DNA of 64,000 nt. It comes from Verrucomicrobiia bacterium (GTDB taxonomy: Bacteria > Verrucomicrobiota > Verrucomicrobiia > Opitutales > Cerasicoccaceae). The position numbers and the translations under genes were made by a program. Under the pieces are notes generated by a model. It ran no database searches. It was not told the DNA's origin and was given only the letters and a program-made list of their open reading frames with translations. The stretch covers positions 1,612,001 through 1,676,000 of the forward strand of contig JAUIHT010000001.1 in the NCBI GenBank assembly GCA_030432235.1, in the 5' to 3' direction. The first letter of the stretch is position 1. The number at the start of each line of letters is the position of its first letter. Of the stretch, positions 1,701-53,455 are shown one piece after another.

Positions 1701-2062
1701 CGGGGGGAGATTGAGAGTCTCGCGCAGAGCCGCCGAGAGGCAGAGGATAAAAGGGTAGGGCAGCAGACCCCCGTCTAGCCGTAGATGCTAAATATTAGCA
1801 ATTACGCTTGCCTGATTATCATATACCACATTATAAAATATTCATACTACTGAACGACGCCATCCTCAAGCAGCGCATGGACAACCTCGTGCCCATCCTC
1901 GCTGCCGCCAACCCTGCCTTCGCCGACGCCTACCGCTTCGCCCGCGTCATCATCGACCGCTCCGGCCCGAAAGAGGACGAAGGTGACGAAGCATCTTAAG
2001 ACGATAAAGATTATCAAAAAGTCACTATTGACTTCGTTTCGGCGAAAAATCTTAATTTAGTC
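1701..2062. other. Intergenic stretch at the left edge of the AT-rich cassette
   Basis: Just after the GH81 stop is a purine-rich segment (about 1711-1752) made of alternating CGCAGAG/GCAGAGG-like units, a dispersed-repeat type seen in many PVC-group genomes. A 6-bp-arm palindrome (TGCTAA-ATA-TTAGCA) lies at 1786-1800. Base composition switches from GC-rich to AT-rich here. The only ORF is the doubtful 63-codon one annotated separately. Confidence 0.4.
1808..1999 (+). CDS. Small hypothetical ORF, possibly a gene remnant
   Basis: A 63-codon ORF with no ribosome-binding site. The N-terminal part (PHYKIFILLNDAI) is AT-rich and hydrophobic; the C-terminal part (NLVPILAAANPAFADAYRFA, then an acidic tail) is GC-rich. 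The composition breaks inside the ORF, which suggests a junction product or the degraded end of an older gene rather than a working protein. I recognise no family. Confidence 0.25.
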   Translation: MPDYHIPHYKIFILLNDAILKQRMDNLVPILAAANPAFADAYRFARVIIDRSGPKEDEGDEAS

Positions 2063-3355
2063 GTGCGCCTCTCCACACAGCTTGTGTCATTCGCATGGAT
2101 GCTGCCTCTTACGCTTTTGGCGGAAGTTGACTATTACTCCGATAACAGAGAAGTTCCACTAGAAACAGTATTTGAATATGCTGCTATAGGCATCGTTGAA
2201 GGCTACGATTATGGCGATTTGCTAACCCTTCCTCCTGACCAAATCGAAAAGTTAGACATTGGTGTGCTGAACATAATCTGTGCCCAGGGATTGCCTGGCG
2301 GGGAGAACATTGATCTCTTCCAGTGTCTAATAATGCTGGATGAATGGGCTGCACACACAAAGGTGGAAACAGAGCGAAACTTCTACAAGTATGAGCAAAA
2401 TCCAGAAGAATACGAAAATTCTGAAGCTTACTTCCGAATGCTTGTTCTGACGGGTGTTCTTCAGCAGGATTTCGGTATTAAGTATGCCTCTGATAAGGCG
2501 GTAACCCCGTTGCCAGCCAGTGAATTGGTTAAGACCCGTGACTTCTACAAAGACAGCTCCGATATTTTCATTCATGGGTTGCTTTCGGACGAACACCGAG
2601 GTACCTGTGCCTCCTTGCCAGTGCTGTTAGTAGCCGTAGGCCGACGTCTCGGATATCCGCTATATCTGGTTTCCGCAAAGGCCCATGCCTTTACCCGTTG
2701 GGATGACCCTGAAGCGGGCGAGAGGCTCAACATCGAATATCATGGCAATGGAATGTCTACCTTTCCTGATGAGTATTATCATGAGTGGCCTTATCCCATG
2801 ACAGAGGCAGAGATAGAAAGTGGTTTCTTTCTAAAAAACATGACTTCACAGGAAGACCTAGCTGTCTTCATGCTCCATCGCGGGCTTGTTCTTGAGCAAT
2901 CTGAGCGTTACCACGAAGCGCAGATTGCCTATGCCAGGGGCGGCGAATTGATGCCGGACTCAATGCACTATCAGTCTTATCTGATTGAGGCAACCAAGCG
3001 CATCAATCCGGCAGTGCTTGCGCAGGGAAATCCCTATCAGAGCACTTACTTTGACAAGCTCCAGCGTCAAAAGCGTGAACTTGTGGCAATGAACCAAGTT
3101 GAAACGAATCAGAATTACTACCTGCGTAAGGAGCTTACCAAAAAAGAAGGAGAAACCGAAGCACTTCGCAAATACATCGATGAGCTACAATCCATGATGG
3201 GCATGAGCGGCTATGAAAAGCGTGACGCCATGCGCAGCAAGCCGTACCTAATGCAGTACCAGTCAACTCCCTCCTTTAACCAGAGCTTGAGCCAAAACGA
3301 GCTGGAAATTGAACGTCAGCGAAAACTCATGATGCTCAAAGACTATCAAAATTAA
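2063..3355 (+). CDS. Secreted transglutaminase-like (papain-fold) protein with C-terminal coiled coil
   Basis: The 430-residue product starts at a GTG and has a short signal-peptide-like N-terminus ending near LLAEV. The centre contains RGTCASLPVLLVAVGRRLG followed by AHAFTRWDD. This Cys-then-His layout is that of transglutaminase-like/SirB1-type papain-fold proteins, with the Cys in RGTC and the His in AHAF as likely catalytic residues. Residues from about 330 are highly charged and heptad-like (QRQKRELVAMNQVET, ELTKKEGETEALRK), indicating a coiled coil. An alternative ATG start at 2099 would shorten the leader. The gene is AT-richer than the flanking glycosidase genes and ends 5 bp before the RHS-tip gene, so the two are probably co-transcribed. 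The substrate is unknown. Confidence 0.65.
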   Translation: MRLSTQLVSFAWMLPLTLLAEVDYYSDNREVPLETVFEYAAIGIVEGYDYGDLLTLPPDQIEKLDIGVLNIICAQGLPGGENIDLFQCLIMLDEWAAHTKVETERNFYKYEQNPEEYENSEAYFRMLVLTGVLQQDFGIKYASDKAVTPLPASELVKTRDFYKDSSDIFIHGLLSDEHRGTCASLPVLLVAVGRRLGYPLYLVSAKAHAFTRWDDPEAGERLNIEYHGNGMSTFPDEYYHEWPYPMTEAEIESGFFLKNMTSQEDLAVFMLHRGLVLEQSERYHEAQIAYARGGELMPDSMHYQSYLIEATKRINPAVLAQGNPYQSTYFDKLQRQKRELVAMNQVETNQNYYLRKELTKKEGETEALRKYIDELQSMMGMSGYEKRDAMRSKPYLMQYQSTPSFNQSLSQNELEIERQRKLMMLKDYQN

Positions 3356-3360
3356 CCGCG

Positions 3361-4197
3361 ATGAAAACACCATCTCTTATATTGTTATTCATGGCTCTGA
3401 GCAGCCATCTCTTCGCTATCTATAATCCTGCCCAAGGCCGCTTTCTCAATCGTGACCCTATTGGAGAAACAGGAGGTAAAAACCTCTATGGATTCGTTGC
3501 AAATGATGGCATTAATAGATGGGATTATCTTGGACTTTGGGAAATTGAAAGAAACCCTAATAAGGAATTTGCTTCTGCAACTGCTGAAGAAAATGATACA
3601 TGGAGCGATCTCTCTAAGGAAACAAAACTTGAGTTATCTGAGTATCAAGAATGGGTTAAATACTATTTTAATGGCGATCCTGTGAGAAGTGGTGAGGATC
3701 CTAGTCCAGGTTGCCAATATAGAATTCCTAATGTTGCTTATGTTCTCCAAGGCGATGTATCCGGATCGGATTACAAGCCACTTGAAAAGGGAAATACTCA
3801 TACTGGATTATTGGGATTCGTTCAAAATGTTGGATTAGGGATTAAGTCTGCAATTATAGTTTATGAAATGAGAGCAAATGCCGCTGAAAATCGATATAAA
3901 ACTGTTGTCAATTACAATGCTACCAGTCAAAATTTTCTAAATGCATTAAAAAATCCGTATACTCAAGCAATCTATTGGCACAGTCATGGAGATTCGGAAG
4001 GTGTTTATGGCGCCAATGAGGTTCATTTTACTCCAGACTCATTAGGCGATCCACACCATAAGGTAGGATTGCTATGGGCTTACGCTTGTAATTCATATGG
4101 ATGTTATTCTGGTTGGATTAACATTGTAAGTTCTAGCGGTGACTTACGTTTGTTTGATGGGCTTTTAACAAATCCGTTTTCAGAGGGTGTGGATTAA
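3361..4197 (+). CDS. Orphan RHS-core tip protein with caspase-like C-terminal domain (putative toxin)
   Basis: The 278-residue product begins with a signal peptide (MKTPSLILLFMALSSHLFA) and goes straight into an RHS-repeat-associated core motif: YNPAQGRFLNRDPIGE, then NLYGFVANDGINRWDYLG (residues about 21-59). A full RHS protein would have over 1000 residues of YD repeats before this; here only the tip is present, placed directly behind a secretion signal. The remaining 220 residues are unlike the core. They include IYWHSHGD (His207/His209-Gly210) and, about 35 residues on, LLWAYACNSYG (Cys243). A strand ending in HG followed by a strand ending in AC is the layout of clan CD (caspase/CHAT-like) proteases, so a protease toxin domain is a reasonable inference. 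It is AT-rich and sits directly downstream of the transglutaminase-like gene. Confidence 0.6.
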   Translation: MKTPSLILLFMALSSHLFAIYNPAQGRFLNRDPIGETGGKNLYGFVANDGINRWDYLGLWEIERNPNKEFASATAEENDTWSDLSKETKLELSEYQEWVKYYFNGDPVRSGEDPSPGCQYRIPNVAYVLQGDVSGSDYKPLEKGNTHTGLLGFVQNVGLGIKSAIIVYEMRANAAENRYKTVVNYNATSQNFLNALKNPYTQAIYWHSHGDSEGVYGANEVHFTPDSLGDPHHKVGLLWAYACNSYGCYSGWINIVSSSGDLRLFDGLLTNPFSEGVD

Positions 4198-4206
4198 TTT
4201 ATAACG

Positions 4207-4467
4207 ATGAGAAAGATTTTTATCTTATTGATAGTTATCGGGGTGACTTCAGTTGTTTGGGGCTGGTTACAACAACCTTTCACATCAAGCAGGTACTTGG
4301 AAAAAAACAGTGCTGATAAGATGGATAATTTAGCTGAATCACGAGAAGAAAGTGAAAATAATGCTAATTTCTATTTTTTTGAAGGGATGAGCTTTATTTT
4401 AATTGGTATTGTTGGATTTGTATTTAGTAGATCAAAGCTCAAAAAAATATCAAAGATTTCTAAATAG
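4207..4467 (+). CDS. Small two-helix membrane protein, candidate immunity protein
   Basis: An 86-residue protein with a hydrophobic N-terminal segment (IFILLIVIGVTSVVWGWL), an acidic central loop (NLAESREESENN) and a second membrane helix (FEGMSFILIGIVGFVFS), ending in a Lys/Ser-rich tail. It starts 9 bp after the RHS-tip stop, shares its AT-rich composition and has no recognisable enzyme motif. By position and size it could be the cognate immunity protein of the RHS-type toxin, but this rests on synteny only. Confidence 0.5.
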   Translation: MRKIFILLIVIGVTSVVWGWLQQPFTSSRYLEKNSADKMDNLAESREESENNANFYFFEGMSFILIGIVGFVFSRSKLKKISKISK

Positions 4468-4503
4468 GGCATGGAATCCTCGCCGTCTAGCTGAAGCGGA
4501 TTG

Positions 4504-5808
4504 TTACTCCACCTTCAGGGACGAGGTGGCGGCGGCGAGGGTTTGATCTTTGGGGTCGATGACGGTGGCGTAGATTTTGGCGCCGCCGTGGAGTTTTTGC
4601 GGGATTTGAATCTCAAAGACGTTGTCGCGGCTGGTTGAGCGGGACTTGAGCGGGTGGATGTTGTCGCGGTACTCGCGTGAGCCCTGGCGCTGGTTGTAGT
4701 AAAACTCCACCTTGGGCCGGGACAGGCCGGCGTCGGCTACCTCGACCATGACCTTGACCCACTCGCCGGGCTTTTTCGGAGTGGTGTCGGCCTTGATGAG
4801 GAAGGTCTCGACCTTGGGGAAAGTGTGGTCCTGACCGGTGAAGGCTTTCAGGGTCGCCCAGTACTGCGGGCGTTTGTAGTCGTCGGTGCGGAGCGAGAGC
4901 CACATGCCGGTGTGGTCGCGGTGGCCGCCGTAGTTGAAGACGAAGCCGCCGATGTTGATGCCTTTGTACTGCGCGATGAGGTCGTACCAGCCGCTGGCGA
5001 TGATGTCGTACTTGTGCTGGTCGTCGGGCTCGCGCTTGACGCCGTTGGGGTCGGTCTGCGCTTCCCACTCGCCCGAGGCGCCGAACTCGCAGACGAGGTA
5101 GGGGCGCTCGATGCCGAGCTTTTCGACGTCGCCGGGGACGGCCGCCGCGCCGTAGCCGTAGGTGTTGACGCCGTAGATGTCGAGCGAGGGGCAGTACTGT
5201 TTCCAGTAGGGCCAGGAGATGGCCCAGGCCGAGACGGAGGCGACGGGGTGGTTGGGGTCGATCTTCTTAATCTCGGCGGCGATTTCCTCAAGGTGCTTCG
5301 AGTAGGCGACCTTTTCCTTCTCCGTGCCCATGTTGAGGATGACCTCGTTGCCGACGCCCCAGCAGAGCACGGCGGGGTGGTCTTTCAAAGCCCGCACGGT
5401 GGCGTAGGCGTGGTCCTTCTGGTCCTGGATGCCTTTCTGGTCACTGACCCAGTTAAAGGAGTCGTCGTCCTCGGCGCCGGGACGTCCGTGGCGCAGCCAG
5501 ATGCCGACCATCACTTTGAGGCCGTTCTTTTCGGCCACGTCCAGCAGCTCCTTGGTGCCGTCGGGGGAGGAGCCCCAGGTGCGGATGGCGTTCGCGCCGA
5601 GGCTCTTGATGTCGGCCAGGTGCTCGCGCAGCTCCGCGCCTTTGCCGTCGCTGCCATAGGTGATGCCCTGCACGTAAAACGGCTGGCCGTCGACCATGAG
5701 CGTGAAGCCGTCCGCGCCTTTTTCGACGTGGACGTCGGCGTGGGCGAGGGAGGCAATCGCGCAGAGGAACGAAAGGATGGAGATAAAGAGACTGGAGATT
5801 TGTTTCAT
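4504..5808 (-). CDS. Secreted clan GH-A (GH2-like TIM-barrel) glycoside hydrolase A
   Basis: The reading frame runs open much further upstream, but the real start is the ATG at 5808, which opens a classic signal peptide (MKQISSLFISILSFLCAIAS, ending at AHA). The 434-residue product is a beta/alpha barrel with FYVQGITYGSDG and LGANAIRTWG near the N-terminus, CWGVGNEV (Glu after Asn: acid/base) in the middle and YLVCEFGASGEWE (Glu: nucleophile) later. This is the pair typical of retaining clan GH-A enzymes such as GH2 catalytic domains. A beta-sandwich-like region of about 100 residues closes the protein. The next gene (start 7208) encodes a paralogue on the same strand. Next to GH81, a role in beta-1,3-glucan breakdown is likely but the linkage is not proven. 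Confidence 0.75.
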   Translation of the reverse strand: MKQISSLFISILSFLCAIASLAHADVHVEKGADGFTLMVDGQPFYVQGITYGSDGKGAELREHLADIKSLGANAIRTWGSSPDGTKELLDVAEKNGLKVMVGIWLRHGRPGAEDDDSFNWVSDQKGIQDQKDHAYATVRALKDHPAVLCWGVGNEVILNMGTEKEKVAYSKHLEEIAAEIKKIDPNHPVASVSAWAISWPYWKQYCPSLDIYGVNTYGYGAAAVPGDVEKLGIERPYLVCEFGASGEWEAQTDPNGVKREPDDQHKYDIIASGWYDLIAQYKGINIGGFVFNYGGHRDHTGMWLSLRTDDYKRPQYWATLKAFTGQDHTFPKVETFLIKADTTPKKPGEWVKVMVEVADAGLSRPKVEFYYNQRQGSREYRDNIHPLKSRSTSRDNVFEIQIPQKLHGGAKIYATVIDPKDQTLAAATSSLKVE

Positions 5809-17923: not shown

Positions 17924-17975
<52 letters not shown>

Positions 17976-18022
17976 GTAATCCTGAAGCCATGCGTAGTAT
18001 TTATGCTGGATGCAGGAGCATT

Positions 18023-18062
18023 GAAATGCACCGAAATGCACAAAAGACTTGTTTTAGCGTGA
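18023..18062. promoter_or_regulatory. Candidate integrase arm-type sites, left end
   Basis: Two direct copies of GAAATGCAC 1 bp apart (18023-18031 and 18033-18041), followed by TTTTAGCGTGA at 18052-18062. The latter 11-mer occurs again at 27676-27686, 60 bp inside the right att repeat. Repeats at both ends inside the core sites are what arm-type integrase or excisionase sites look like. Confidence 0.4.
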
Positions 18063-18083
18063 ATAACGTGACTGAATGCGCCT

Positions 18084-19268
18084 ATGCCAAGGACCCCGAA
18101 GCTCCCCATAGTCAAGACCGTTTCCGGTAAATGGCGGTATGACCTGCCGCCGAGCATGGCCCAGTCTGGCAGACGCCAGCGCAAAACTTTCGACACAAAA
18201 AAACAGGCTGAGCTTTCTCGACTCAAGGATATGGAGCGCCAAAAGCTACACGGCGTCGAGGGTTTCTCCATTCCGTCGAGCCTGGCGACCCAGGCGGTCA
18301 AGGCCGTGGACATCCTCAAACCCACCGGCGCAACCATCGTAGAGGCGGCAACTGCCTATCTGGAGCACTGGACGCTGGCGAATAGCAGCAAGACCTTTCT
18401 CGAGCTGTGGGCTATCCGTGAAGATGAGCTTACCGGGAAATCCGACAATCACAAAAACACTAATATTGCTCTGGGGCGAAACCTGACACCGATCCTTGGC
18501 GATAAGCTCGTATGCGACATTGGCCATGAGGACATCAGGAAGGCCCTCACAGTGGCTTACCCTACAGCACATGGCTACAATCTCGCCCTACGCAATCTCA
18601 GGCCTGCTTTTGGCCTTGCTGTGCGCGAGGGATGGGCAACCGCAAATCCTTGCGACCGGCTCAAGCCACGTGACACCACCCGTAACGAGATCGCGATCCT
18701 GACGCTGAATCAGTCGCGTAAGGTCATGGCGTCCGCACTCGACTACAGCCAGCGCGGTAATGACTGGCCCGAATACTTGAAAGTGGATGCCACCGGGGCA
18801 ACCGCCGCCCTAGCGCTCATGCTCTTTGCTGGCGTCCGTCCTGCTGAGGTGGCCCGTCTCGATTGGGAAAACGTGAACCTCAATGACGGCACAGTCTTTG
18901 TATCCGCTCAGAAGTCTAAAACTGACCGCAGCCGCTTCTTTGACATGCCGGATACCCTCAAGGCATGGCTGGCTACCGTGCCCGTCACAGAGCGCACAGG
19001 GGCCGTTGTCCCGCTCAACTGGAAAAAGTGCTGGCAGGCCATTAGGCGCGAGGCTGGAATTTCGGATCAACGCGACCAACTACGGAAGACATTTGCGAGC
19101 TGCCATCTGCAAGCCTTCAATGACGTGAAGGCGACCAGGGCGATCATGGGGCATGAGGTGGGAGACGTGCTGTTCACTAATTACCGCGGGCTTGTCTCCA
19201 AAGCAGAGGCATTGAATTTTTGGGAAATCGTTCCAGGCGATAATTTGCGCAGGAAGGTGGCAGGATGA
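18084..19268 (+). CDS. int: Tyrosine-type site-specific integrase
   Basis: A 394-residue tyrosine recombinase. The C-terminal catalytic domain shows Arg252 in LFAGVRPAEVARLDW, Lys in SAQKSKTDRSR, Arg334 in DQLRKTFASCH, His357 in AIMGHEVG and the nucleophile Tyr367 in LFTNYRGL. The first position of the HxxR box is Asp331 rather than His, a substitution in a position known to vary in the family. The N-terminal 200 residues contain a SAM-like core-binding domain (ATAYLEHWTLANSSKT). It is adjacent to the left att repeat and reads into the element, as expected for an integrase recombining at tRNA-Lys. The ATGA overlap with the next gene implies coupling. Confidence 0.93.
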   Translation: MPRTPKLPIVKTVSGKWRYDLPPSMAQSGRRQRKTFDTKKQAELSRLKDMERQKLHGVEGFSIPSSLATQAVKAVDILKPTGATIVEAATAYLEHWTLANSSKTFLELWAIREDELTGKSDNHKNTNIALGRNLTPILGDKLVCDIGHEDIRKALTVAYPTAHGYNLALRNLRPAFGLAVREGWATANPCDRLKPRDTTRNEIAILTLNQSRKVMASALDYSQRGNDWPEYLKVDATGATAALALMLFAGVRPAEVARLDWENVNLNDGTVFVSAQKSKTDRSRFFDMPDTLKAWLATVPVTERTGAVVPLNWKKCWQAIRREAGISDQRDQLRKTFASCHLQAFNDVKATRAIMGHEVGDVLFTNYRGLVSKAEALNFWEIVPGDNLRRKVAG

Positions 19269-19729
19269 GCCGCCTACCTAAAGTCACGCAGTCAGCTCTT
19301 CGCATTGCGGCCTTGTTAGCTGATGGAGATGACAAAGAGGCTGGAAATTTGCTTGCTGAGCTATACCGCAATAATGACTTAGTGGCCATCCGCGATATCC
19401 CCAAAGCAATCGAAGGAATAAAAAAACCAATAGGAAATAAGGCACGAGAAGATTTAGAACTCGAAGTTGCGATGGTGGAGTTTTGTCTAGAATATCCTCC
19501 CAAACGGCTTCAACAATTCTCCGGATATACTAAAGGGCAGCTTGTTGAGGCTGAACTATCGGGACAGCAGATTTTTGAGAGCAAGCCCATCAACTTTGAA
19601 GAATGGCTTTGGCAAAACCGAACTAAATTGGCATCTAGGTTGAATCGTGGCGGTCAAGAATTACGCAAGAGAATTGAGAGGCTGGACACGTTTAGTGCCA
19701 TTTTCAAAGTTTCAATCAGGACGGATTAA
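19265..19729 (+). CDS. Hypothetical protein coupled to the integrase
   Basis: The start ATG overlaps the integrase stop (ATGA). The 154-residue product is helical and charged (DKEAGNLLAELYRNNDLVAI, RGGQELRKRIERLDTF) with no recognised motif. It is AT-richer than the integrase. Tight coupling suggests a role in integration or its control. Confidence 0.6.
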   Translation: MSRLPKVTQSALRIAALLADGDDKEAGNLLAELYRNNDLVAIRDIPKAIEGIKKPIGNKAREDLELEVAMVEFCLEYPPKRLQQFSGYTKGQLVEAELSGQQIFESKPINFEEWLWQNRTKLASRLNRGGQELRKRIERLDTFSAIFKVSIRTD

Positions 19730-19781: not shown

Positions 19782-19970
19782 GTGAAAGCGAACCAAACAT
19801 ACTCAACACGCACTGAGTTTGCAGACAGACTAAAGGTTAGTCTTCGCCACCTGGATGACTTAATTGGTGAAGGCGTAGTTCCTGTGATTCGGCTAGGACG
19901 TTCCGTAAGGATCCCCACCGAAGAAGCATTGGAGTGTCTTGATCGCCTAAAGGTCGGAGGTGTCCGGTGA
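19782..19970 (+). CDS. Excisionase-like MerR/HTH_17 DNA-binding protein
   Basis: A 62-residue protein with a GTG start. The sequence TEFADRLKVSLRHLDDLIGE followed by VVPVIRLGRSVRIPTEEALE is the winged-helix pattern of the HTH_17/excisionase family (a helix-turn-helix, then a basic wing and an IP-x-EAL helix). It is too small to be anything but a DNA-binding adaptor. Next to the integrase it is a good candidate for the recombination directionality factor. It ends in a GTGA overlap with the following small gene. Confidence 0.75.
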   Translation: MKANQTYSTRTEFADRLKVSLRHLDDLIGEGVVPVIRLGRSVRIPTEEALECLDRLKVGGVR

Positions 19971-20224
19971 AGCTGCCTAGGGTTTCCGCATCCGGCAGGC
20001 GTAAGATCGAATCGCGCACGGTTGCCGAGCTGTGCCGCTCAAAAGCCGTGAAGGGCGCACGTAGACGGCGAGAACGTCTTTCCGGGCAAGGTCTGGCCAT
20101 TCGTTACAGTGAAGACCATGACCTTACAGGCGTACCACTCCGATGTGATCAGCGCTCCCAATTACGCGTTGCCCAGGAGATCGAATCAGACGGATCGCCG
20201 TGGATAGAGAAGGGTGGTGTGTGA
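19967..20224 (+). CDS. Small basic hypothetical protein
   Basis: An 85-residue Arg/Lys-rich product (RKIESRTVAELCRSKAVKGA, RRRRERLSGQG) whose GTG overlaps the excisionase-like stop (GTGA) and whose stop is directly followed by the next GTG. Coupling on both sides supports expression. No family is recognised; the charge suggests nucleic-acid binding. It could still be a chance ORF in a polycistron. Confidence 0.4.
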   Translation: MKLPRVSASGRRKIESRTVAELCRSKAVKGARRRRERLSGQGLAIRYSEDHDLTGVPLRCDQRSQLRVAQEIESDGSPWIEKGGV

Positions 20225-21199
20225 GTGGATGGAGACTCACACGGTTTTGTACAAGCGCCTAGATCAGGTGGCGCTTTCCCGCCGGGTATTGGTTTGATCG
20301 CAAGTGGGCAACGCGGATCAGGGCATCGGACTTTCTGTTTGTTGTACATTATCGCGCACCGGGTCCAACGCAGCGAACCGAAGAACGGGCTCGAAATTGG
20401 TCAATGCTACATGGGCCGCAGTGAATGCAAAAGCTTTGGCATGGATGAGCAGGAGTTCAGAACCGCCCTAACTCGATTGGAACTCAATGGAACTATAACC
20501 AAGACTTCAACCAAGAAGGGAACCACCATAACCCTGATAGATACTAGCATTTTTGACCCCAACTTTGAAACTCCAACCAAGACTCAAAATAACTCCAACC
20601 GAACTCCAACCACTAATAAAGAAGGAAATAAGGGAAAATGTATAAATAAAGGAAATGAAGGAATGGACGCCCACAAGGTGGGCAGTGGTTTTTCTGTTCA
20701 GGAGCTTAAAGAGTACGATCCGACTACCATACCAGCGCCGTCGCAGCAGGTCGTTCGATTCGTCAAAGACTTCGATGTCGACCACGGGGCGGCTCAACGG
20801 TGGTGGGCATCAAGCCGCTACTACGACTGGGTGATCCCTGGCAAGGATGGTAAGCCTACAAGAATGCGTTCATGGCCGCATGCACTACTGGCATTTGCCG
20901 AAGCTGACAAAGAGCGCAGTACCTCACAAGACAGCCTCAGCAGCGATGAGTTTTGGGCGTGGTTCAAATCCGAGTATGGTGATCGTGACGACGAATGGGC
21001 AGAAGACGTTAACGACGACGCATGGACAGCAGTAGAGGCGTGGATCGATCTTAACCAGCGTAGAGACTGGAAGGTCCTCAATCGCCAAAACGGACAGCTT
21101 GAGCCCTTGCGCGATTACCGAAAGGCATTCGTTGCCTACTATGATGCATGGCACGTGAGTTGGGATGAGGGGACATGGGCGTATGGACAATCTGCATAA
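20225..21199 (+). CDS. Phage-type winged-helix replication protein (replisome-organiser-like)
   Basis: 324 residues from a GTG directly after the previous stop. Residues about 40-110 read as the winged helix common to phage and plasmid replication proteins: FCLLYIIAHRVQRSE, LEIGQCYMG, then the recognition helix region DEQEFRTALTRLELNG and the wing TITKTSTKKGTTITLIDTSI. A low-complexity Asn/Thr linker follows. The C-terminal part (VVRFVKDFDVDHGAAQRWWA, RMRSWPHALLAFAEADKERS) resembles the helical domain that contacts the helicase or loader. It probably initiates replication of the element, possibly with a host helicase, since no helicase gene is visible. Internal AT-rich segments around 20,560-20,660 may hold the origin. 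Confidence 0.65.
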   Translation: MDGDSHGFVQAPRSGGAFPPGIGLIASGQRGSGHRTFCLLYIIAHRVQRSEPKNGLEIGQCYMGRSECKSFGMDEQEFRTALTRLELNGTITKTSTKKGTTITLIDTSIFDPNFETPTKTQNNSNRTPTTNKEGNKGKCINKGNEGMDAHKVGSGFSVQELKEYDPTTIPAPSQQVVRFVKDFDVDHGAAQRWWASSRYYDWVIPGKDGKPTRMRSWPHALLAFAEADKERSTSQDSLSSDEFWAWFKSEYGDRDDEWAEDVNDDAWTAVEAWIDLNQRRDWKVLNRQNGQLEPLRDYRKAFVAYYDAWHVSWDEGTWAYGQSA

Positions 21200-21319: not shown

Positions 21320-21706
21320 ATGAAACAAAATAACAACTACAAGCCAACTCGACGAACGTGCCGAGACGGCAGCGGGCCGAAGCCCTACGAGCTGATCCAT
21401 GACCTGCTCGCGGAGAACGGCATTGAGGAAGCGGCAGCCGCCAGGCTTCACGATCTGATCGAGTTGCATGTCAATGACCAGTCACGCCGGGCAGCCGCAG
21501 AGGCCGTTTTCGCCGTATTGGAGCGGCTGGAGAGGGTCAACTGCACCGGTGCAGCCCTGTCATGGCTTTTGCGTGCTACCCCGGAAACTCAGGAAGAACT
21601 AGCCGAGCGGCTGGGAGCGAGTAAGCAGGCCATTTCGAAACAGATCAACGCACTGAAAATACATTTCGCCGACATGCTTATCGAGGATGGTGAGGCGAAG
21701 GGTTGA
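21320..21706 (+). CDS. Helix-turn-helix protein of the element
   Basis: A 128-residue protein. The C-terminal 35 residues form a helix-turn-helix of the sigma-region-4/MarR-like sort (TQEELAERLGASKQAISKQI, then NALKIHF). The first half is helical (YELIHDLLAENGIEEAAAAR). It overlaps the next gene by TTGA. It could be a transcriptional regulator of the element; a terminase small subunit is less likely because no large subunit follows. Confidence 0.6.
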   Translation: MKQNNNYKPTRRTCRDGSGPKPYELIHDLLAENGIEEAAAARLHDLIELHVNDQSRRAAAEAVFAVLERLERVNCTGAALSWLLRATPETQEELAERLGASKQAISKQINALKIHFADMLIEDGEAKG

Positions 21707-22311
21707 CAGCGCGCGCTATAGGTATGGGAACACCAAATCAAAAATCCATTCGCCAGCTTGAAAAAGAGTTGGAGTCCATTGAAGAGCAGCTCCAGGAGAG
21801 CAACCGTCGTTGGGGGCCGCGTGCCGACCAAAAAGGCGATGCCAAGTATTCGGCGCGGGAGTTTCTGGCAACGGTCGCAGTCGTGGAGGATGCGCGTCAC
21901 CGCCGCGATCAACTCACTGAGAATCTCATCCAGCGCGGCCCGCAAATCCTTGCTCAGCACCGCAAGCCGCATCCAGCCGCGATCACACCTGTTCGGTCTG
22001 GACTTTCCACGCACTGTCAAGACCTGCTACCCGATGCATCTGCTATCGCAGATTTTGAAGCCTTAATAAAAGTCTTCGAAGCCGATCCCGAATGGTGCGC
22101 CTTACGTGACGAAGTAGTTGCACTTTGGGAGCGCCGGGCGTCCCTTGTGGCAGAGCTGGAAACAAAGCGTATGGAGGCACACCGCTTGACCGCCGAAGCC
22201 CGGTTGGCCGAGGAAGCGCACGTAGCCGACGCCGTCCAGAAGGCCAAGGCAAGCCTGCCTGCGAAGGTCCAGGGTATGTTTACGAAGGTCAAGGAACTGA
22301 CGGGGGGTTGA
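21703..22311 (+). CDS. Coiled-coil hypothetical phage-like protein
   Basis: The TTG at 21703 overlaps the previous stop; an ATG at 21724 is the alternative start. The 202-residue product has two long heptad-rich helices (SIRQLEKELESIEEQLQESN and ERRASLVAELETKRMEAHRL) separated by a Pro-rich linker. No catalytic motif is visible. Its position directly before other small genes and the tape-measure gene suggests a structural or scaffolding role. Confidence 0.55.
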   Translation: MTARAIGMGTPNQKSIRQLEKELESIEEQLQESNRRWGPRADQKGDAKYSAREFLATVAVVEDARHRRDQLTENLIQRGPQILAQHRKPHPAAITPVRSGLSTHCQDLLPDASAIADFEALIKVFEADPEWCALRDEVVALWERRASLVAELETKRMEAHRLTAEARLAEEAHVADAVQKAKASLPAKVQGMFTKVKELTGG

Positions 22312-22312
22312 T

Positions 22313-22690
22313 ATGAGCGCCACTTTATCACGCACCGAATACAACAAGCTGCCGCCTCTGGCAAAGGCTACCTTCCATAAAACCGGTGGTAAAATCGTAC
22401 ACACCGGGGCCAACACCACGGCGGCGGCAGTAATTGCTAAACAGCTTATGGACGACAAAGGTCGCACCGGGCGAATCGTGACGCGTCAGGAATTTGACGC
22501 CATGAGCAGCCAGGAAAAATCTGCCTTCTTCGAAGACGGGGGACGCATCGGCGGACCGCATACTATCCGCGAAATTGCCAAGGCTTTCGGTCTTTCCTCT
22601 GCCGTGGCTGACGTTGCGATCTCGGCTTCGATGTCTCCTGAGAATTTCCGAGGATGGGCCGTTGCCCATACGCTCAAGAGTAGTGGTTGA
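22313..22690 (+). CDS. Small phage-like protein with a duplicated motif
   Basis: 125 residues. Two copies of one unit are visible: TEYNKLPPLAKATFHKTGGK (residues 8-27) and QEFDAMSSQEKSAFFEDGGR (59-78), pattern [TQ]E[YF]-x4-S/P-x-x-K-x-x-F-x-x-GG[KR]I. This short unit is common in phage head or tail-region hypothetical proteins. The C-terminal 45 residues are helical. It starts 1 bp after the previous stop. Function unknown. Confidence 0.55.
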   Translation: MSATLSRTEYNKLPPLAKATFHKTGGKIVHTGANTTAAAVIAKQLMDDKGRTGRIVTRQEFDAMSSQEKSAFFEDGGRIGGPHTIREIAKAFGLSSAVADVAISASMSPENFRGWAVAHTLKSSG

Positions 22691-23066
22691 GGAAACGCTA
22701 CCGCCGTTCACATTGGCGGCGGTAGCAATCTATTTTGAGATGTTACGCACCGCGAAATTAACCGTAGATGGTGAGCGGATACCCCTTGTGGTTACTCGCC
22801 GTGTTGAAGTGCTGGCCATCCAAGCGGGAGTATTGGAAGCGGCCTGGCGCTGTGATCTGATCGCGATGCTGACGGTTGCCAAATTGGCCCTGTCCGATGA
22901 GCGCCCGCTCGCTGAATTTGCCGAAGCCATCGACGAAGAGTCCGGCGACATTATCAAGCAAGTTTCGTTGGCTTTAAGAGAACATGCCGCTACGGGCAGA
23001 GCCTTGTATTATCCCGAGCCAACAAAGCGGGAGCAACAGCAAACCCGACCTGACGGACTGAACTAG
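22683..23066 (+). CDS. Hypothetical protein upstream of the tape-measure gene
   Basis: The GTG at 22683 overlaps the end of the previous gene and gives 127 residues; a longer frame from 22575 would sit inside the previous gene and is less likely. The product is mostly helical (PPFTLAAVAIYFEMLRTAKL, VLAIQAGVLEAAWRCDLIAM) and acidic towards the end. In tailed phages the gene just before the tape measure usually encodes a tail assembly chaperone. That is a positional guess; no chaperone motif or slippery frameshift signal is evident. Confidence 0.5.
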   Translation: MVEETLPPFTLAAVAIYFEMLRTAKLTVDGERIPLVVTRRVEVLAIQAGVLEAAWRCDLIAMLTVAKLALSDERPLAEFAEAIDEESGDIIKQVSLALREHAATGRALYYPEPTKREQQQTRPDGLN

Positions 23067-23067: not shown

Positions 23068-24963
23068 ATGTCGGGGGCAGTTGGCAATTTACACGTAGGG
23101 CTCACCGGCAGGGCGAAAGGCTTTGTCGACGCAGCCAACCGCGCTAAGCGGGGCGTGCATGCTCTCAGGCAGGAGACCGGCAAGGGCCGAGCCTCGTTTG
23201 CCCAGTTCTCCGATCAGATGAGTAAGGTGCGCAATGCCGTTGTGGGCGGAGGCATCGCCGCCGGGTTGATAGGCATAGCCACTGCGCAGGCGCGCGCCGC
23301 CGACGAGATCGACAAAGCCAGTAAACGGATCGGTGTCTCCACAGAATATCTTCAAGAATTTCGGTATGCAGCCACACAGACCAGTGACGTCACGAGGGAC
23401 GTTGCTGACATGGCAATGCAGCGTTTCTCACGTCGTCTTGCAGAGGCGGCTAAGGGTGCGGGGGAATTAAAGGGGGTCCTGGAACAGTACAAGATTGCCG
23501 CAACCGATGCCCGAGGCCGCACGCGGTCAGTCGAGGCCGTCATGGACGATCTTGCCGATGCTATCAAGAGCGTGGAAAGCCCGCAGGAACGGCTCAGGAT
23601 TGCTTTCAAGGCGTTTGACTCCGAGGGGGCCGGGCTTGTTACCACTCTGGAGAACGGAAGCGCCGCCCTGGCGAGATACCGGCAAGAGGCCGTCGACACA
23701 TTCAACGTAATAGATGCCGGGTCAATTCACACACTGGTTAGGGCTCGCGATCAAATCAACAGTTACACCGGATCACTGAGTACCCTTGCGACAATAGCGG
23801 CGGGCAAAGCCCTTGAAGGACTCTCGATGTCAGGCGAAATGCTTGCGGTGTTTTTCGGGGCAATGGCCGATGGGCGCGATCCTATGGAGGCGGGCCTAAA
23901 GCTGGTTGCTGAGTGGAATGAAGAGACGGACGCCGCCGCAGGCTCAACCAATAAGCTCACTGAGGCACAGCTACGACTCAATGCGGCCATGGAAGCAGCC
24001 AAGGAGACGGCTGCAAATATAGCAGCTGCTACGGAAGACTTTAACAAACGCCTGAAGGTTGCGGAATATATTCGTGAAATACATGCCGAGGCCCGCGAAG
24101 CAGTAGCAGCTATTAATGAAAACGATCTGCTCTCGGCGATGACACCAGCCGAAAAACTGGAGTACGCGAAAGGTCGGATCGAGGAGCTAAGGCAGGTAGC
24201 GGCGGACGCGAACATAGAGACACAAGCCGGGGCTGAACTATACGCAGATGCGGTCAAGAAGGCGACCGAATATCACCAAACCGCGCTTGAATCCCAACGC
24301 GAGCTAACGGAGGAACTGAAACGCCAAACTGAAGAAATGCGCCTCCAGCGTAAGGAAGCCGAAGCAGCAAGGATCGAGAAGATCGAGAACGAGCTTGGTT
24401 TCACACAGCAACAGTTTCAGGACAAGACGCGGGAAGTGATGAAAAACAACCCTTACTTGTCCCCGGCCCAAGCGATGCACTTTGCACAGGTCCGGCTCAA
24501 GAAAGAGGCCAGAGACGCGGCCAAGAAGGCAAAAAAGGGAGATAGCTTTTATGGCGAGGGTACATCCAAAGACGCATTCGAGAAAAGTAGTATGCCCTCG
24601 CTGAAAGGCGAAACCAGAACCGGCGGATCGGCGGGCGAAGTTCATTTTGCATTCCGAAGTGGCCTGTCAGCCGATCCCGCCATTCAGGCTGCCAACGCCT
24701 ACAGGGCAAGGCTCAATGCACTAGGCCGGCGTGCCTTTACCCTGCGCGCCGGGGGCTACAGCGGCTATCGTGACGATCTCGGCGGCATTCAGTCTCTGTT
24801 CGCGCCGGGGTCCGGCATGGCCAGCACACTCAGCACGAGCGGGGTATCCTACCAGGTCAAGCGGGCCGAGGACCGGCAAGAACGCATGGCCGACAGGCTC
24901 GACCAGATGGCAGACGACATCAACGAGCTGACGAACAAGGTTACGGGCCGGGTTAACCGGTAG
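23068..24963 (+). CDS. Phage tail tape-measure protein
   Basis: 631 residues, starting 1 bp after the previous stop. The N-terminus has the tape-measure pattern: AKGFVDAANRAKRGVHALRQ, a hydrophobic Gly/Ala stretch (VVGGGIAAGLIGIATAQARA), then ADEIDKASKRIGVSTEYLQE, which is the conserved TMP segment before the long helix. The middle and C-terminal parts are long charged coiled coils (SQRELTEELKRQTEEMRLQR). At 631 residues it would set a fairly short tail. It is the only recognisable virion gene in the element; no tube, sheath, baseplate or capsid gene is present. Confidence 0.8.
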   Translation: MSGAVGNLHVGLTGRAKGFVDAANRAKRGVHALRQETGKGRASFAQFSDQMSKVRNAVVGGGIAAGLIGIATAQARAADEIDKASKRIGVSTEYLQEFRYAATQTSDVTRDVADMAMQRFSRRLAEAAKGAGELKGVLEQYKIAATDARGRTRSVEAVMDDLADAIKSVESPQERLRIAFKAFDSEGAGLVTTLENGSAALARYRQEAVDTFNVIDAGSIHTLVRARDQINSYTGSLSTLATIAAGKALEGLSMSGEMLAVFFGAMADGRDPMEAGLKLVAEWNEETDAAAGSTNKLTEAQLRLNAAMEAAKETAANIAAATEDFNKRLKVAEYIREIHAEAREAVAAINENDLLSAMTPAEKLEYAKGRIEELRQVAADANIETQAGAELYADAVKKATEYHQTALESQRELTEELKRQTEEMRLQRKEAEAARIEKIENELGFTQQQFQDKTREVMKNNPYLSPAQAMHFAQVRLKKEARDAAKKAKKGDSFYGEGTSKDAFEKSSMPSLKGETRTGGSAGEVHFAFRSGLSADPAIQAANAYRARLNALGRRAFTLRAGGYSGYRDDLGGIQSLFAPGSGMASTLSTSGVSYQVKRAEDRQERMADRLDQMADDINELTNKVTGRVNR

Positions 24964-25546
24964 AGACTTTCATCGGAAAGGGGTACGTTAGTGGTCGCCG
25001 CTTTGGGTAATGATCTGATTTTGCCGTCTTTCCCGGTTCGCGGTTTTGAGGTGCTAACCGTTAGCACCTGTTCGCGAATTTTCATAACGAAGGGGTCGCT
25101 GACCGCGCACATCTCGGCAATAGCCCGATCTGACAAGGCGGCGAACTCGCCTTCGCCGCCTCGGCAATGGCCTTCGCCGTCAGCTTGCCGCCCGTCGCCG
25201 CCACCGCCTTGGTCAGCACTTCCTCGCGCTTGGCGGGTTCGACTTTCGAAAGTTCGCGGGCTTGGCTTTCAGTTGTAATTTTGGGACCAATTGGTCCCAG
25301 TTCTTTCACAACTTCATTGCCTTCAATGATTCGATTAACATGACGCTGTGAGAGCCCCCACTTTTCACGGCAGTAGGTTTTAAAGTCTCCATGAGTTACC
25401 CGATACAGACGACCGTCACGGATGGCGCACAGCGCTTCGCCCACCTCAAGAAAGGTCTGCATGCCCTTCTCGATCCTCTGCTCGTGGTATTGGAGATCGT
25501 TTTTCTGCTTGCCCGGTAGGGCACGATAGGACAACATTATCAACAT
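24849..25546 (-). pseudogene. Frameshifted ParB-like phage/plasmid protein
   Basis: The intact part (25546 back to about 25150) encodes LQYHEQRIEKGMQTFLEVGE, then a helix-turn-helix-like FKTYCREKWGLSQRHVNRII, then TESQARELSKVEPAKREEVL and LTAKAIAEA. After about 25,150 the frame turns into a Cys/Pro-rich tail, while another minus frame continues the expected sequence (LSDRAIAEMCAVSDPFVMKI, REQVLTVSTSKPRTGKDGK). One indel in the GGCGGCGAAGGCGAG tract explains this. The continuation then runs antisense into the tape-measure 3' end, so the original C-terminus is also lost. A ParB-like DNA-binding role is likely for the ancestor. Confidence 0.65.
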
Positions 25547-25583
25547 GGCCGTGGAAAGCCTACTAACACAAGTTCTTCACTTT

Positions 25584-25648
25584 GCACCCCGCTGGCAGTT
25601 GGGAGGGCTCCTTGTGTGCCCAATTTCCACCCCGGACGGGCGGGGTGC
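25584..25648 (+). repeat. Inverted repeat in the leader of the next gene
   Basis: GCACCCCGC (25584-25592) and GCGGGGTGC (25640-25648) are perfect complements and enclose a nested TTGGG/CCCAA pair. A GCTCCTTG motif is repeated within the region. The fold ends 17 bp before the ATG at 25666 and next to its GGAGAG ribosome-binding site, so it could modulate translation. Confidence 0.45.
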
Positions 25649-25665
25649 TCCTTGGAGAGATACTA

Positions 25666-26307
25666 ATGGGAAAAGTGCGCGTTACCCTTACCCTGGACGG
25701 GCCGGAAGCAAAGGCCTTAGAACGATTAGCAGAACTGTTTGAAATAGAACATCGAGGCGTGGAGCGAGGACACATACGGTCAAAGGTCGCAAATCGCTAT
25801 CTCGGAGAGGCCCTTCTATGCTTGGAGGACGAAATGGACAGCGGCTTTGAGGTTCCGTTTTGCCCGCGTTTCGAGTTGGCAAAAGGTGAGTGGCGACATT
25901 CCGAGCGCTTGAATGGAGAGCGCAGCATTAAGCGCGACAACATCGTCGAATTCGTGAATGAGGCAGCAGAGGAAGCCGCCGAAGATACATGTGAAGATGC
26001 ACCGATACCTTACAGGCCGCCCCAATACTACCTACGAAAATTTAGGAATGAATTCAACGCGGATGCATTGAAGCAGCGTTTTAGTCACTCGGCTGCTTAC
26101 CTAATATCCGCTTTAGCGGAAGACATTGAGGTAAACCATAATAGCTTCAGGAAGTACGATATGAGCCCTCCCAGAGTCTGGGATTGGGCGCAGGTGTATC
26201 GTTGGGCAATCCCCAATAATAAGATAGCTGAAGATGAACAGACAACATGGGCATTCGAGAATGGAAGAATAACTTGGATTCGAACAGGAGAACGAAATCA
26301 GTCATGA
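25666..26307 (+). CDS. Hypothetical element protein with ribbon-helix-helix-like N-terminus
   Basis: The ATG at 25666 is preceded 5 bp upstream by GGAGAG and is a better start than 25582. 213 residues. The beginning (GKVRVTLTLDGPEAKALERL) resembles a ribbon-helix-helix strand and helix. The rest contains FVNEAAEEAAEDTCED and an aromatic-rich end (MSPPRVWDWAQVYRWAIPNN). No enzyme motif is recognised. It ends in an ATGA overlap with the next gene. Confidence 0.55.
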   Translation: MGKVRVTLTLDGPEAKALERLAELFEIEHRGVERGHIRSKVANRYLGEALLCLEDEMDSGFEVPFCPRFELAKGEWRHSERLNGERSIKRDNIVEFVNEAAEEAAEDTCEDAPIPYRPPQYYLRKFRNEFNADALKQRFSHSAAYLISALAEDIEVNHNSFRKYDMSPPRVWDWAQVYRWAIPNNKIAEDEQTTWAFENGRITWIRTGERNQS

Positions 26308-26549
26308 GCAACCGTACACTCACCGAGGCCGACATTGAGGCGGTAGCCGACCGGGTTGTCTCTAAACTCGAAGCCTTGCACTCTCCGATCGTGTCACGAG
26401 CCGAGGCAATGAACCTGGCCAAGTGTAAATCGCTATGGGCCTGGCAACAGTTCACGAAACGGCACAAGCTGAAACCGATCCCTGGCAGGACCGACGCCTA
26501 CAGCCGGGAAAAGGTTCAGCACGCCGTTAATCGGGAAGCAAAGCGTTAA
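26304..26549 (+). CDS. Small DNA-binding-like protein
   Basis: 81 residues from the ATG that overlaps the preceding stop (ATGA). The amphipathic start (LTEADIEAVADRVVSKLEAL) matches the start of the following gene (LTEEQIEAIVDAVEARLAKR), so the two look like paralogues. SRAEAMNLAKCKSLWAWQQF fits a degenerate helix-turn-helix. It is probably a regulator or excisionase of the element. Confidence 0.55.
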   Translation: MSNRTLTEADIEAVADRVVSKLEALHSPIVSRAEAMNLAKCKSLWAWQQFTKRHKLKPIPGRTDAYSREKVQHAVNREAKR

Positions 26550-26564: not shown

Positions 26565-26810
26565 ATGACCGGTATATCCATAGAACTCACAGAGGAGCAA
26601 ATCGAGGCCATTGTTGACGCTGTAGAAGCCCGGTTGGCCAAGCGCCGCCTTGAGGCCTTCGAGGCCCCGCTCACAGTCAAGGAGTTCGCCGACAAGGTGA
26701 ACCTCTCCGAGCGCTCAGTCTACCGGATGGTCGACGACAAGGAGATCGAGCGGGTTTCCGGCATCTCGAAAATCCTGATCCCGGCCCGAGAACTCAAACG
26801 CTTCATGTGA
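26565..26810 (+). CDS. HTH_17 / excisionase-family DNA-binding protein
   Basis: 81 residues. After an amphipathic helix comes the typical HTH_17 motif: LTVKEFADKVNLSERSVYRM, then VDDKEIERVSGISKILIPAR with ELKRF at the end. This is the excisionase/MerR-like winged-helix layout. It is followed directly by a good terminator. It could be a second directionality factor or a repressor of the element. Confidence 0.75.
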   Translation: MTGISIELTEEQIEAIVDAVEARLAKRRLEAFEAPLTVKEFADKVNLSERSVYRMVDDKEIERVSGISKILIPARELKRFM

Positions 26811-26902: not shown

Positions 26903-27220
26903 ATGAGAGTCATCACCAAAGCAAGGCTGCTTGAACTGGCCAAGGCCCATGCCGACAGCCTGCCGAGCGTCAAGCTGTGGCTATCGACCGTCCAAAACGC
27001 CGCCTGGAGTAACTTTGCCGACCTACGCAACACTTTCAATTCCGCCGACATGGTGCACCTCGACAGCGGCAACACCGTTTATGTCTTCAATATCCGTTCA
27101 TATCGCCTCATCGCTGCCATTCATTTCACGCCGAAAAGTCCGGACAAGGGACGGGTCTACGTCCGCGAATTTCTCACGCACGCCGATTACGACAAGAACA
27201 CTTGGAAGGAAAGGAACTGA
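26903..27220 (+). CDS. higB: HigB-type toxin (mRNA interferase)
   Basis: 105 residues of the HigB_toxin family: MRVITKARLLELAKAHADSL, SWSNFADL-like (here AWSNFADLRNTFNSADMV), YVFNIRSYRLIAAIHF and a basic, aromatic C-terminus (VREFLTHADYDKNTW). Members of this family cleave mRNA at the ribosome. The toxin gene comes first and the antitoxin second, 3 bp apart, as usual for HigBA. It probably stabilises the integrated element. Confidence 0.9.
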   Translation: MRVITKARLLELAKAHADSLPSVKLWLSTVQNAAWSNFADLRNTFNSADMVHLDSGNTVYVFNIRSYRLIAAIHFTPKSPDKGRVYVREFLTHADYDKNTWKERN

Positions 27221-27223
27221 TTC

Positions 27224-27655
27224 ATGAAAACGCTCATAGACCGCAACGCCACACTGCCCGCAACCTATACCGGACTGGTCAAGGCGTTCATGCCGCGCCC
27301 GATCCATGACCAGGTCGGCCACGATAACACTCTGGCCGTCATCGACGCCATGGCGGGCCGTCCCCTCAATGATGAGCAGGAGGAATACTTGGACTTGCTC
27401 TCGACACTTCTTGAAGCCTACGAGGATGATTTGCTCAAGGATGAGCTGGAATCGCTTCCGCGGGGCCTGCCGATGCTGCAATATCTTTGCGAGGAAAACG
27501 ACGTCAACGGGGCAGAGTTGGGCCGCATTCTCGGGGTAGGGCGTGCCCAGTCGTCTTTATTGCTCAAGGGAGAACGCAAGCTTACGGTGTCGCATATTCA
27601 ACGGCTCGCTGAGCACTTCAAGGTGTCCGCGGAGCTATTCATGGGACGAGCTTGA
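27224..27655 (+). CDS. higA: HigA-type antitoxin, XRE helix-turn-helix
   Basis: 143 residues. The N-terminal half (IDAMAGRPLNDEQEEYLDLL) is the dimerisation/toxin-binding part. The C-terminal half is an XRE helix-turn-helix: NGAELGRILGVGRAQSSLLL, KGERKLTVSHIQRLAEHF. It neutralises HigB and very likely represses the operon through the palindrome at 26884-26902. It is the last gene before the right att repeat. Confidence 0.9.
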   Translation: MKTLIDRNATLPATYTGLVKAFMPRPIHDQVGHDNTLAVIDAMAGRPLNDEQEEYLDLLSTLLEAYEDDLLKDELESLPRGLPMLQYLCEENDVNGAELGRILGVGRAQSSLLLKGERKLTVSHIQRLAEHFKVSAELFMGRA

Positions 27656-27746: not shown

Positions 27747-27825
<79 letters not shown>

Positions 27826-48914: not shown

Positions 48915-49571
48915 ATGAAGAGACAAGTAAAGCGCTTAATAAAATTTGCCTTGGGTAAGACGAAAAAGCTTCAAGAGAACCTTCTCGTTGAGGCCTTGAA
49001 GGAAGTTTCCATCGACCCCCGGAAATGCAGGATATCCATCGATCACGATAGAGGGGTTTCTGAAGTGAACGGTGTGAAGCTGGGAATTATCTACCCCAAA
49101 AGATACTTCTATACCTCCGAGTGTCTGCCGGCATCCAGACAGTACGAATACTATTTTAACGGCTATCCGGGAGATGATAATGGCAGACGCGATATGCTGA
49201 GGCCCTACCAGAAGGAAGACAGCCAGATCATCTTTAGTCGCGACGGCAGAAACATCTGGAAAAAGAATTCCTACAACCGCGTGTACTATGTGGGTATGAA
49301 GTCAGCCCGCTTTGCGCTTTGCCCCCATCAACTGGACTGGAAGGGCGACAAGGACTGCCTGTGGACTTATCGGTTTATTGAGGCGTGCATGTGTCGCTCG
49401 ATTCCTATCTTGTTCAGGAGGACGCCGCTTTCGGACGCCTTCACAGATGGCATCAAGTACTACTGGGATGATGAGCCTCATTTGTACGATGAGGAGATCA
49501 CGAGCCGCAACTTTTGTGAGTCCTACAAACGGTTTACCTTGAGTGAGGCCGAGATTGCCAAGCTCCGCTGA
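48915..49571 (+). CDS. Exostosin-like glycosyltransferase
   Basis: 218 residues, AT-richer than the genes before it. A basic start (KRQVKRLIKFALGKTKKL), then YESNR-like conserved pieces: VYYVGMKSARFALCPHQLDW, then DCLWTYRFIEACMCRSIPIL. The latter (FxLxPxG..., E-A-x-x-x-G/S-x-I-P-x-x) is the acceptor/donor-site region of GT47/exostosin and related families. It is probably shorter than a full exostosin domain. First gene of the AT-richer block. Confidence 0.6.
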   Translation: MKRQVKRLIKFALGKTKKLQENLLVEALKEVSIDPRKCRISIDHDRGVSEVNGVKLGIIYPKRYFYTSECLPASRQYEYYFNGYPGDDNGRRDMLRPYQKEDSQIIFSRDGRNIWKKNSYNRVYYVGMKSARFALCPHQLDWKGDKDCLWTYRFIEACMCRSIPILFRRTPLSDAFTDGIKYYWDDEPHLYDEEITSRNFCESYKRFTLSEAEIAKLR

Positions 49572-49626
49572 GGCTCACTTTTAATTTACGCGTCAAATAA
49601 AGATTAAAGCGGCATATCAAAACTGG

Positions 49627-53416: not shown

Positions 53417-53455
53417 TTATAAGATACTACTGTTCTTGAAATCCATTGGAGTAAT

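Follow-up and report, generated by a model that had tools for sequence, protein, structure and literature searches.

The window, by which we mean the whole stretch of 64,000 nucleotides of Cerasicoccaceae DNA that was analysed, carries in a tRNA-Lys gene an integrated element that we call E1. It measures 9,823 bp and is bounded by a direct repeat in the 3' part of the tRNA gene, the two 52-bp copies of which (17924-17975 and 27747-27798) match perfectly; the evidence supports a self-contained element rather than debris. Its features are given below. The gene calls are mechanical (longest open reading frames, ORFs), and the genomes with which E1 was compared are drafts.

17924..17975, no strand: attL, left copy of the perfect 52-bp direct repeat (repeat search)
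18084..19268, +: tyrosine integrase, 394 aa (PF00589, 9.3e-10; phrog_1, 1.7e-29)
19265..19729, +: ORF of 154 aa overlapping the integrase gene, no assignment (PHROG/Pfam scans)
19782..19970, +: small HTH_17 protein, 62 aa, excisionase/AlpA-like (PF12728, 6e-4, below cut-off; weak PHROG HTH matches)
19967..20224, +: ORF of 85 aa, no assignment (PHROG/Pfam scans)
20225..21199, +: replication-type protein, 324 aa, weakly like a DnaD helicase loader (phrog_186, 7.6e-4)
21320..21706, +: HTH protein, 128 aa (MarR/HTH matches below cut-off)
21703..22311, +: ORF of 202 aa, no assignment (no match in phage records)
22313..22690, +: ORF of 125 aa, no assignment (no relative in phage records or viral contigs)
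22697..22726, +: 12-bp hairpin with U-rich sequence after it, possible terminator or attenuator, before the ORF that precedes the tape-measure gene
22740..23066, +: ORF directly upstream of the tape-measure gene, 108 aa from its ATG; may start instead at a GTG at 22683
23068..24963, +: tape-measure protein, 631 aa (PHROG, conserved positions, AlphaFold/Foldseek)
25082..25546, -: ORF of 154 aa, weak matches to ParB-like and uncharacterised phage proteins; homologue at L225, a locus with integrase and primase
25582..26307, +: ORF of up to 241 aa, no assignment (PHROG/Pfam scans)
26247..26549, +: ORF of 100 aa, no assignment (PHROG/Pfam scans)
26565..26810, +: HTH_17 protein, 81 aa, excisionase-like (PF12728, 1.3e-8; phrog_66, 4e-4)
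26903..27220, +: HigB-like toxin, PD-Lambda-2_A-like (PF09907, 2.2e-20; PADLOC, 2.6e-17)
27224..27655, +: HigA-like antitoxin, PD-Lambda-2_B-like (HTH below cut-off; PADLOC, 1.7e-9)
27747..27798, no strand: attR, right-hand copy of the 52-bp repeat; overlaps the 3' part of the tRNA-Lys gene
27750..27825, -: tRNA-Lys (TTT), integration site

The 62-aa HTH_17 protein has homologues beside two related integrases (L195 and L196). When 288 genomes of the phylum were searched with the 128-aa HTH protein only the E1 copy was returned, yet E4 (genome G438), one of three further elements described below, carries a homologue at a similar position (5.8e-7). Two phage matches to this protein (H21 and H22) lie in unverified records that read like bacterial chromosome and were set aside, and a PADLOC match of the 202-aa ORF to LmuB (1e-3) was taken as chance. 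The HigB/HigA pair (26903-27655) adjoins attR; the PADLOC match of the HigA-like protein sets 143 aa against a PD-Lambda-2_B model of 402 positions.

No close copy of E1, and with it no sign of recent mobility, was found in the collections searched, which may leave out near records. In an empty-site comparison at the loci of eight relatives (about 1.5 kb on each side), no tRNA lay near the neighbouring acyltransferase gene and synteny was absent. Elsewhere in the window, positions 2001-5000 and 49001-54000 are lower in GC (0.41-0.49) than most of the sequence.

The Tape-Measure Gene of E1

A clear tail tape-measure protein (TMP) had been recognised at 23068-24963 in an earlier, sequence-only reading of this DNA, and comparisons of both profile and structure bear it out. 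The best PHROG match is phrog_9483 ('tail length tape measure protein'; 4.4e-23, residues 35-254), and several further PHROG families of the same name also match; the Pfam scan gave no tape-measure match. A Foldseek search of BFVD with the AlphaFold model returned 75 matches at E <= 0.001, many of them named tape measure, and a search of the PDB returned none at that threshold. The model, with a mean pLDDT of 63.1, is confident only in the N-domain (residues about 70-230, pLDDT 86-98) and in parts of the later helices. Ninety phage records match the protein, 89 of them from Vibrio; between residues 79 and 266 the best rows are 36.2% identical to it. For residues 270-631 the collected set yields no match other than E1 itself. 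The intact frame of 631 codons, stressed in that reading together with its tight coupling to the neighbours, was confirmed: the gene has an ATG start on the + strand, one base past the stop of the preceding ORF. Its length is close to the median (620 aa) of the 65 complete phage TMPs that we collected. Third-position GC is 0.63, against 0.42-0.71 in the other listed E1 genes and 0.74-0.78 in four host genes. A PADLOC match of the TMP coiled coil to ZorA (3e-6) was taken as chance.

The sole match to this TMP in the host genome is the E1 copy, and direct scans of viral and genome contigs gave no confirmed relative. A three-row TMP profile reached 75 loci in viral contigs and 2 in genomes. Judged by their gene maps the 75 viral ones are mostly phage-like; truncated contigs among them cannot be classed, and a few (L161, L163 and L164) are ambiguous.

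We gauged constraint on the TMP by residue conservation, the nearest homologues being about 40% identical. Relaxed selection, which the sequence-only reading had named as evidence that would count against it, shows no sign at the phage-conserved positions. E1 keeps 45 of 54, which is the median phage rate (of 74 phage or prophage rows, 37 do no better). The TMP of E2, another of the further elements, also keeps 45 of 54, and that of E4 keeps 38 of 53 (30 of 74 rows as low or lower).

The ORF at 22740-23066 was considered as a tail assembly chaperone, a role for which the profile comparison gave no support: with hhalign, three window ORFs, entered as single sequences, reached at most 2.5% probability against 46 families found upstream of TMP genes. 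A structure model of this ORF from the single sequence was uninformative (pLDDT 42). The overlap of the 125-aa ORF with the next frame had suggested a frameshift pair, which likewise found no support: the shift would be +1 or -2, and inspection by eye revealed no slippery site. The stretch 22670-22750 around the hairpin has a z-score of -3.2; 16 terminator-like sites were counted in the region, against 11.7 +/- 3.5 in shuffles. As a guess, the hairpin at 22697-22726 could gate late expression of the TMP.

No Other Virion Gene Is Recognised in E1

All 16 ORFs taken as E1 genes, a set that excludes other overlapping mechanical ORFs, were scanned against PHROGs and Pfam, and none could be assigned to a family of capsid, portal, large-terminase, tube, sheath or lysis proteins, in agreement with what had been read from the letters alone. 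Two weak HTH-type matches were not counted as evidence, that of 19782-19970 to phrog_57 (small terminase, 1.1e-4), which stands beside matches to HTH/excisionase families, and that of 26247-26549 to the head-and-packaging family phrog_3517 (0.022). A complete or defective prophage is defined by two or more structural modules; in E1 there is the TMP only. PICIs and P4-like satellites carry a primase-replicase, and a small terminase or a capsid-size determinant. In E1 neither PHROG nor Pfam detected a primase-replicase, and no satellite packaging or capsid-remodelling gene was recognised, the weak phrog_57 match of the 62-aa HTH protein being ambiguous; a primase/helicase is present in E4.

Searches of the host genome for GpA terminase (PF05876), Terminase_6C (PF17289), phrog_2 and Phage_portal (PF04860) gave no match. 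The GpA terminase, Terminase_6C and phrog_2 searches found matches in 5 of 10, 2 of 4 and 3 of 4 related genomes, respectively; PF04860 is insensitive here, giving a weak match in 1 of 4 related genomes and missing the prophage-bearing G336, which is of the same family as the E1 host. As these terminase and portal searches detected no resident tailed helper phage in the host genome, a helper for E1 would probably come from outside it.

Two other terminase patterns were seen. Contig G390:C1 carries four identical-scoring GpA terminase matches (at 4495956, 4531676, 4567396 and 4603116) exactly 35,720 bp apart, an array that is either a tandem 35.7-kb prophage or an assembly artefact. G336:C16:83365-84750 and G387:C3:830500-831828, from one genus, hold similar matches to large terminases of the Terminase_6C type, perhaps a shared prophage or gene-transfer element.

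Relatives of the Integrase and Replication Genes

E1 could be what is left of a prophage that decayed until only the integrase, the regulators and the TMP were kept. Full phages carry members of its TMP family and of its integrase family, and one viral contig, L114, holds both. However, identity between the integrases of L114 and E1 is only 22.6%, against 39-45% between the E1 integrase and those at six further loci in the order (33% with E4 and 29% with E2). At those six loci, and at L221, L225, L243 and L244, nothing matched the collected phage virion genes at E <= 1e-4, some of these loci being short. Nor did we find a full phage with the E1 backbone, the kind of homologue that the sequence-only reading had named as counter-evidence. 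That reading took the intact frame as an argument against simple decay, and the argument now extends to the perfect att repeats and the conserved positions of the TMP. Under decay, moreover, four elements that are at most distantly related would each have kept just the TMP. Since the TMP keeps its consensus residues and no virion gene turned up at the loci of the closest integrases, recent decay of E1 is unlikely, and we regard the decayed prophage as an improbable explanation overall.

Homologues of the E1 replication gene were found at L221, L243 and L244, beside an integrase in the first two, and none of the three loci has a TMP of the E1 family. Because the replication gene occurs without it, the TMP looks like an added module. 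L221 1925-8825 (G504:C95) is itself a 6.85-kb element in tRNA-Met; it holds an integrase as well as the replication-gene homologue, and its att repeat is perfect over 52 bp. L243 is a tRNA-Gly locus. A TMP of the E1 family was also absent from all of 32 other integrase neighbourhoods of the order, taken from among many matches, which suggests that the module is rare; 12 of the 32 are shorter than 10 kb, and the TMP profile is blind to the TMP of E3. As E1, E2 and E4 belong to the training set of that profile, recovering them is no control. The integrases of these three are distantly related (29-33% to E1), so that the three tRNA elements are not wholly independent.

Three Further Elements with a TMP and No Capsid Gene

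The search for the same gene order that the sequence-only reading had proposed gave a positive answer: mobility genes, replication or HTH genes and a TMP, with no capsid gene, occur together in three further elements of the order. The TMP profile was run against 372 genomes of the order, with at most two candidates scored per genome, and matched in at least 36 of them (at least 53 match rows, some of which are the same gene). We read the surroundings of 24 TMP loci, namely those of the window, G387:C1, G336, G128 and 20 further stretches. Four are TMP-only, 18 have one or more other virion genes, and 2 (L073 and L077) are ambiguous. The other virion genes were recognised by terminase matches at L010, L022, L079 and L085; by PHROG portal, sheath or tail matches at L069, L071, L075, L080, L083, L084 and L086; and by likeness to virion genes of viral contigs at L067, L068, L070, L074, L078, L081 and L082.

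E2 (G387:C1) spans 9.65 kb, with a perfect 25-bp att repeat in tRNA-Pro and a TMP of 850 aa. Its 217-aa DnaD-like replication gene (phrog_186, 5.1e-12) belongs to the same family as that of E1. E3 (G387:C2) is built differently: its mobility genes encode a transposase (PF09299) and a TniB/MuB ATPase (PF05621, phrog_296), and besides a regulator it has a TMP from another family than that of E1 (TMP_3, PF20155, 9.4e-24). Its putative ends carry three exact copies of a 9-bp motif, and no target duplication was established when the ends were examined. Inovirus-like genes (Zot family, 2.3e-13) adjoin E3, in L076 (G387:C2) at 17951-19099 and in L214. E4 (G438:C75), in a genome from another family than the E1 host, spans 13.35 kb with a perfect 47-bp att repeat in tRNA-Thr, and carries a primase/helicase and a TMP of 543 aa (PF10145, 2.1e-10). 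The TMP of E4 is followed by a 317-aa protein that shares a domain with the crAssphage 'putative tail protein', so that E4 may perhaps hold a TMP plus one tail protein.

PHROG scans of 13 ORFs in E2, 11 in E3 and 13 in E4 led to no accepted head, portal or terminase family; integrases apart, the ORFs outside these scans have at most 154 aa, and the E3 scan stops at the uncertain right end of that element. A coiled-coil match in E3 to the head-morphogenesis family phrog_1660 (2.2e-6) was discounted.

Origin of the TMPs

A quick tree was built from 88 TMP N-domains and contains long branches. In it the TMP of E2 is sister to that of a full prophage of Cerasicoccus arenae (G336), with 64% identity in the N-domain and a starred branch, and the TMP of E1 falls, with weak support, among those of viral contigs. 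A single clade of E1, E2 and E4 was rejected in the same long-branched tree (p-AU 0.022). Compared over 831 aligned positions, the E2 and G336 proteins (850 and 857 aa) are 46.6% identical; the E1 protein is 42% identical to that of G336 over 214 aa. These sequence relationships make it likely that the TMP module was acquired from local phages on more than one occasion.

Discussion

By a phage satellite we mean an integrative element that lacks genes for capsid, large terminase and lysis and is spread by the particles of an infecting helper phage. Our preferred reading, to which we give a rough probability of 0.6, is that E1 is such a satellite and that its own TMP would replace that of the helper in chimeric tails. 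The integrase would place E1 in tRNA-Lys, as the att repeats that we observe suggest, and infection by a helper would then induce the DnaD-like replication gene. The ORF at 22740-23066 and the TMP would be expressed late, perhaps by passage of the hairpin at 22697-22726. By analogy with the Vibrio cholerae PLEs, the satellite TMP could serve as the scaffold of the tail tube instead of the TMP of the helper, and the satellite would thereby set tail length and DNA injection. The HigBA/PD-Lambda-2-like pair, judging by homology, may be maintenance or defence cargo.

The sequence-only reading had suggested, as one of two alternatives, a satellite that remodels the tail of its helper by controlling its length. 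What is strengthened is the self-contained integrated element, as its combination of genes recurs and its TMP keeps the phage-conserved positions; tail-length control is unproven as the purpose. The TMP of E2 has almost the length of its prophage relative (850 against 857 aa), which points to replacement rather than resizing in E2 and argues against resizing as a general purpose. Other candidates are assembly specificity, escape from an anti-TMP defence and DNA injection.

The main rival is that E1 is a satellite-like element or defence island in which the TMP homologue is a decoy, binding the tail initiator or chaperone of a phage through its N-domain, poisoning tail assembly and so protecting the host. 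Blocking of tail assembly is known from satellite and prophage systems, through Tai (PMC11364771) and through Rta of PLE11 (PMC12987554). The TMP of E1 keeps the N-domain while its C-terminal half has no relatives in the collected set, and the PD-Lambda-2-like pair lies in the same element. However, a decoy would not need a full-length ruler of 631-850 aa, the TMP of E2 resembles a prophage TMP over 831 positions, and that of E1 has a length near the phage median. Tai and Rta are carried by satellites or prophages and act on tail assembly, and in the available portions of the two reports, unlike the E1 protein, they are not described as TMP homologues; Rta is a protein of 80 aa with no characterised homologues outside putative satellites and is no TMP homologue (PMC11364771, PMC12987554). 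We consider a decoy unlikely, if less so than decay. Much the least probable reading is that the TMP serves a tail-like particle, a transfer device or another cell-envelope function of the island rather than a helper tail. It would fit a TMP that is the sole recognised virion gene in E1-E3, with no helper known, but within E1 itself no tube, baseplate or sheath gene with which to build a particle was recognised.

If the preferred reading, a satellite with a replacement TMP, is correct, replacement of the tail ruler would be a recurrent satellite strategy, with four Verrucomicrobiota elements on at least two kinds of backbone. Before this, satellite control of helper tails had been demonstrated only in 2026 and in one Vibrio family. 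E1-E3 have no other recognised head or tail gene and E4 has one further tail-like gene, so that such elements would offer a minimal system for what a TMP alone specifies, be it tail length, assembly specificity or DNA injection. A broader proposal, which we put forward tentatively and at somewhat less than even odds, is that TMP-only satellites are polyphyletic. At least two kinds of backbone, one tRNA-integrating with distant integrases and different replication genes and the other of the Mu/TniB type, would each have captured a TMP from local phages, and the ruler swap alone would be a general and sufficient means of taking over helper tails.

Comparison with Known Systems

The sequence-only reading knew of no established satellite family defined by such a TMP, a statement now outdated by the PLEs and the capsid-forming cf-PICIs: a satellite with its own TMP is a kind that has been in print since March 2026 (PMC12987554, Nature). 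No publication on Verrucomicrobiota satellites or on elements with a TMP as sole virion gene was found among the matches listed, in which the subscription literature is thinly covered. What is new here is the phylum, a TMP that comes with neither capsid genes nor a detectable tail chaperone, and its recurrence on different backbones.

Besides their own TMP, the PLEs of Vibrio cholerae encode a tail assembly chaperone, and some of them also encode a baseplate hub. In PLE11 particles the PLE TMP is present and the helper TMP absent, the tails are about 10 nm shorter, and transfer fell by 96 to 99.9% when tmp was deleted from three PLEs (PMC12987554). Like E1, PLEs are integrated, have their own TMP, which in PLEs is distant from that of the helper, and lack a full structural set. 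Chimeric tails are demonstrated for PLEs; neither tail assembly chaperone nor baseplate hub was detected in E1, and the phylum differs. The cf-PICIs that Extended Data Fig. 10 of PMC12987554 draws with a putative tmp gene are in this respect like E1 but form capsids from their own capsid genes, of which none was detected in E1. PICMIs are small satellites and, like E1, have no recognised capsid-remodelling genes; the words 'tape measure' are absent from the available text of PMC10803314, whereas E1 has a TMP.

Among phages, the prophage of Cerasicoccus arenae (G336:C10; L010/L011) has a TMP homologous to those of E1 and E2, to the latter over its length. Besides a GpA-type large terminase, it has additional head and tail ORFs, recognised by reading and clustering, of which none was recognised in E1. 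In general terms, satellites are described in the available part of PMC13376191 as elements of 7-20 kb, bounded by att sites, with integrase, regulation and replication genes and no structural genes. E1, with its 9,823 bp, att repeats, integrase, HTH proteins and weakly DnaD-like gene, answers to this description, its TMP being the one exception to the lack of structural genes.
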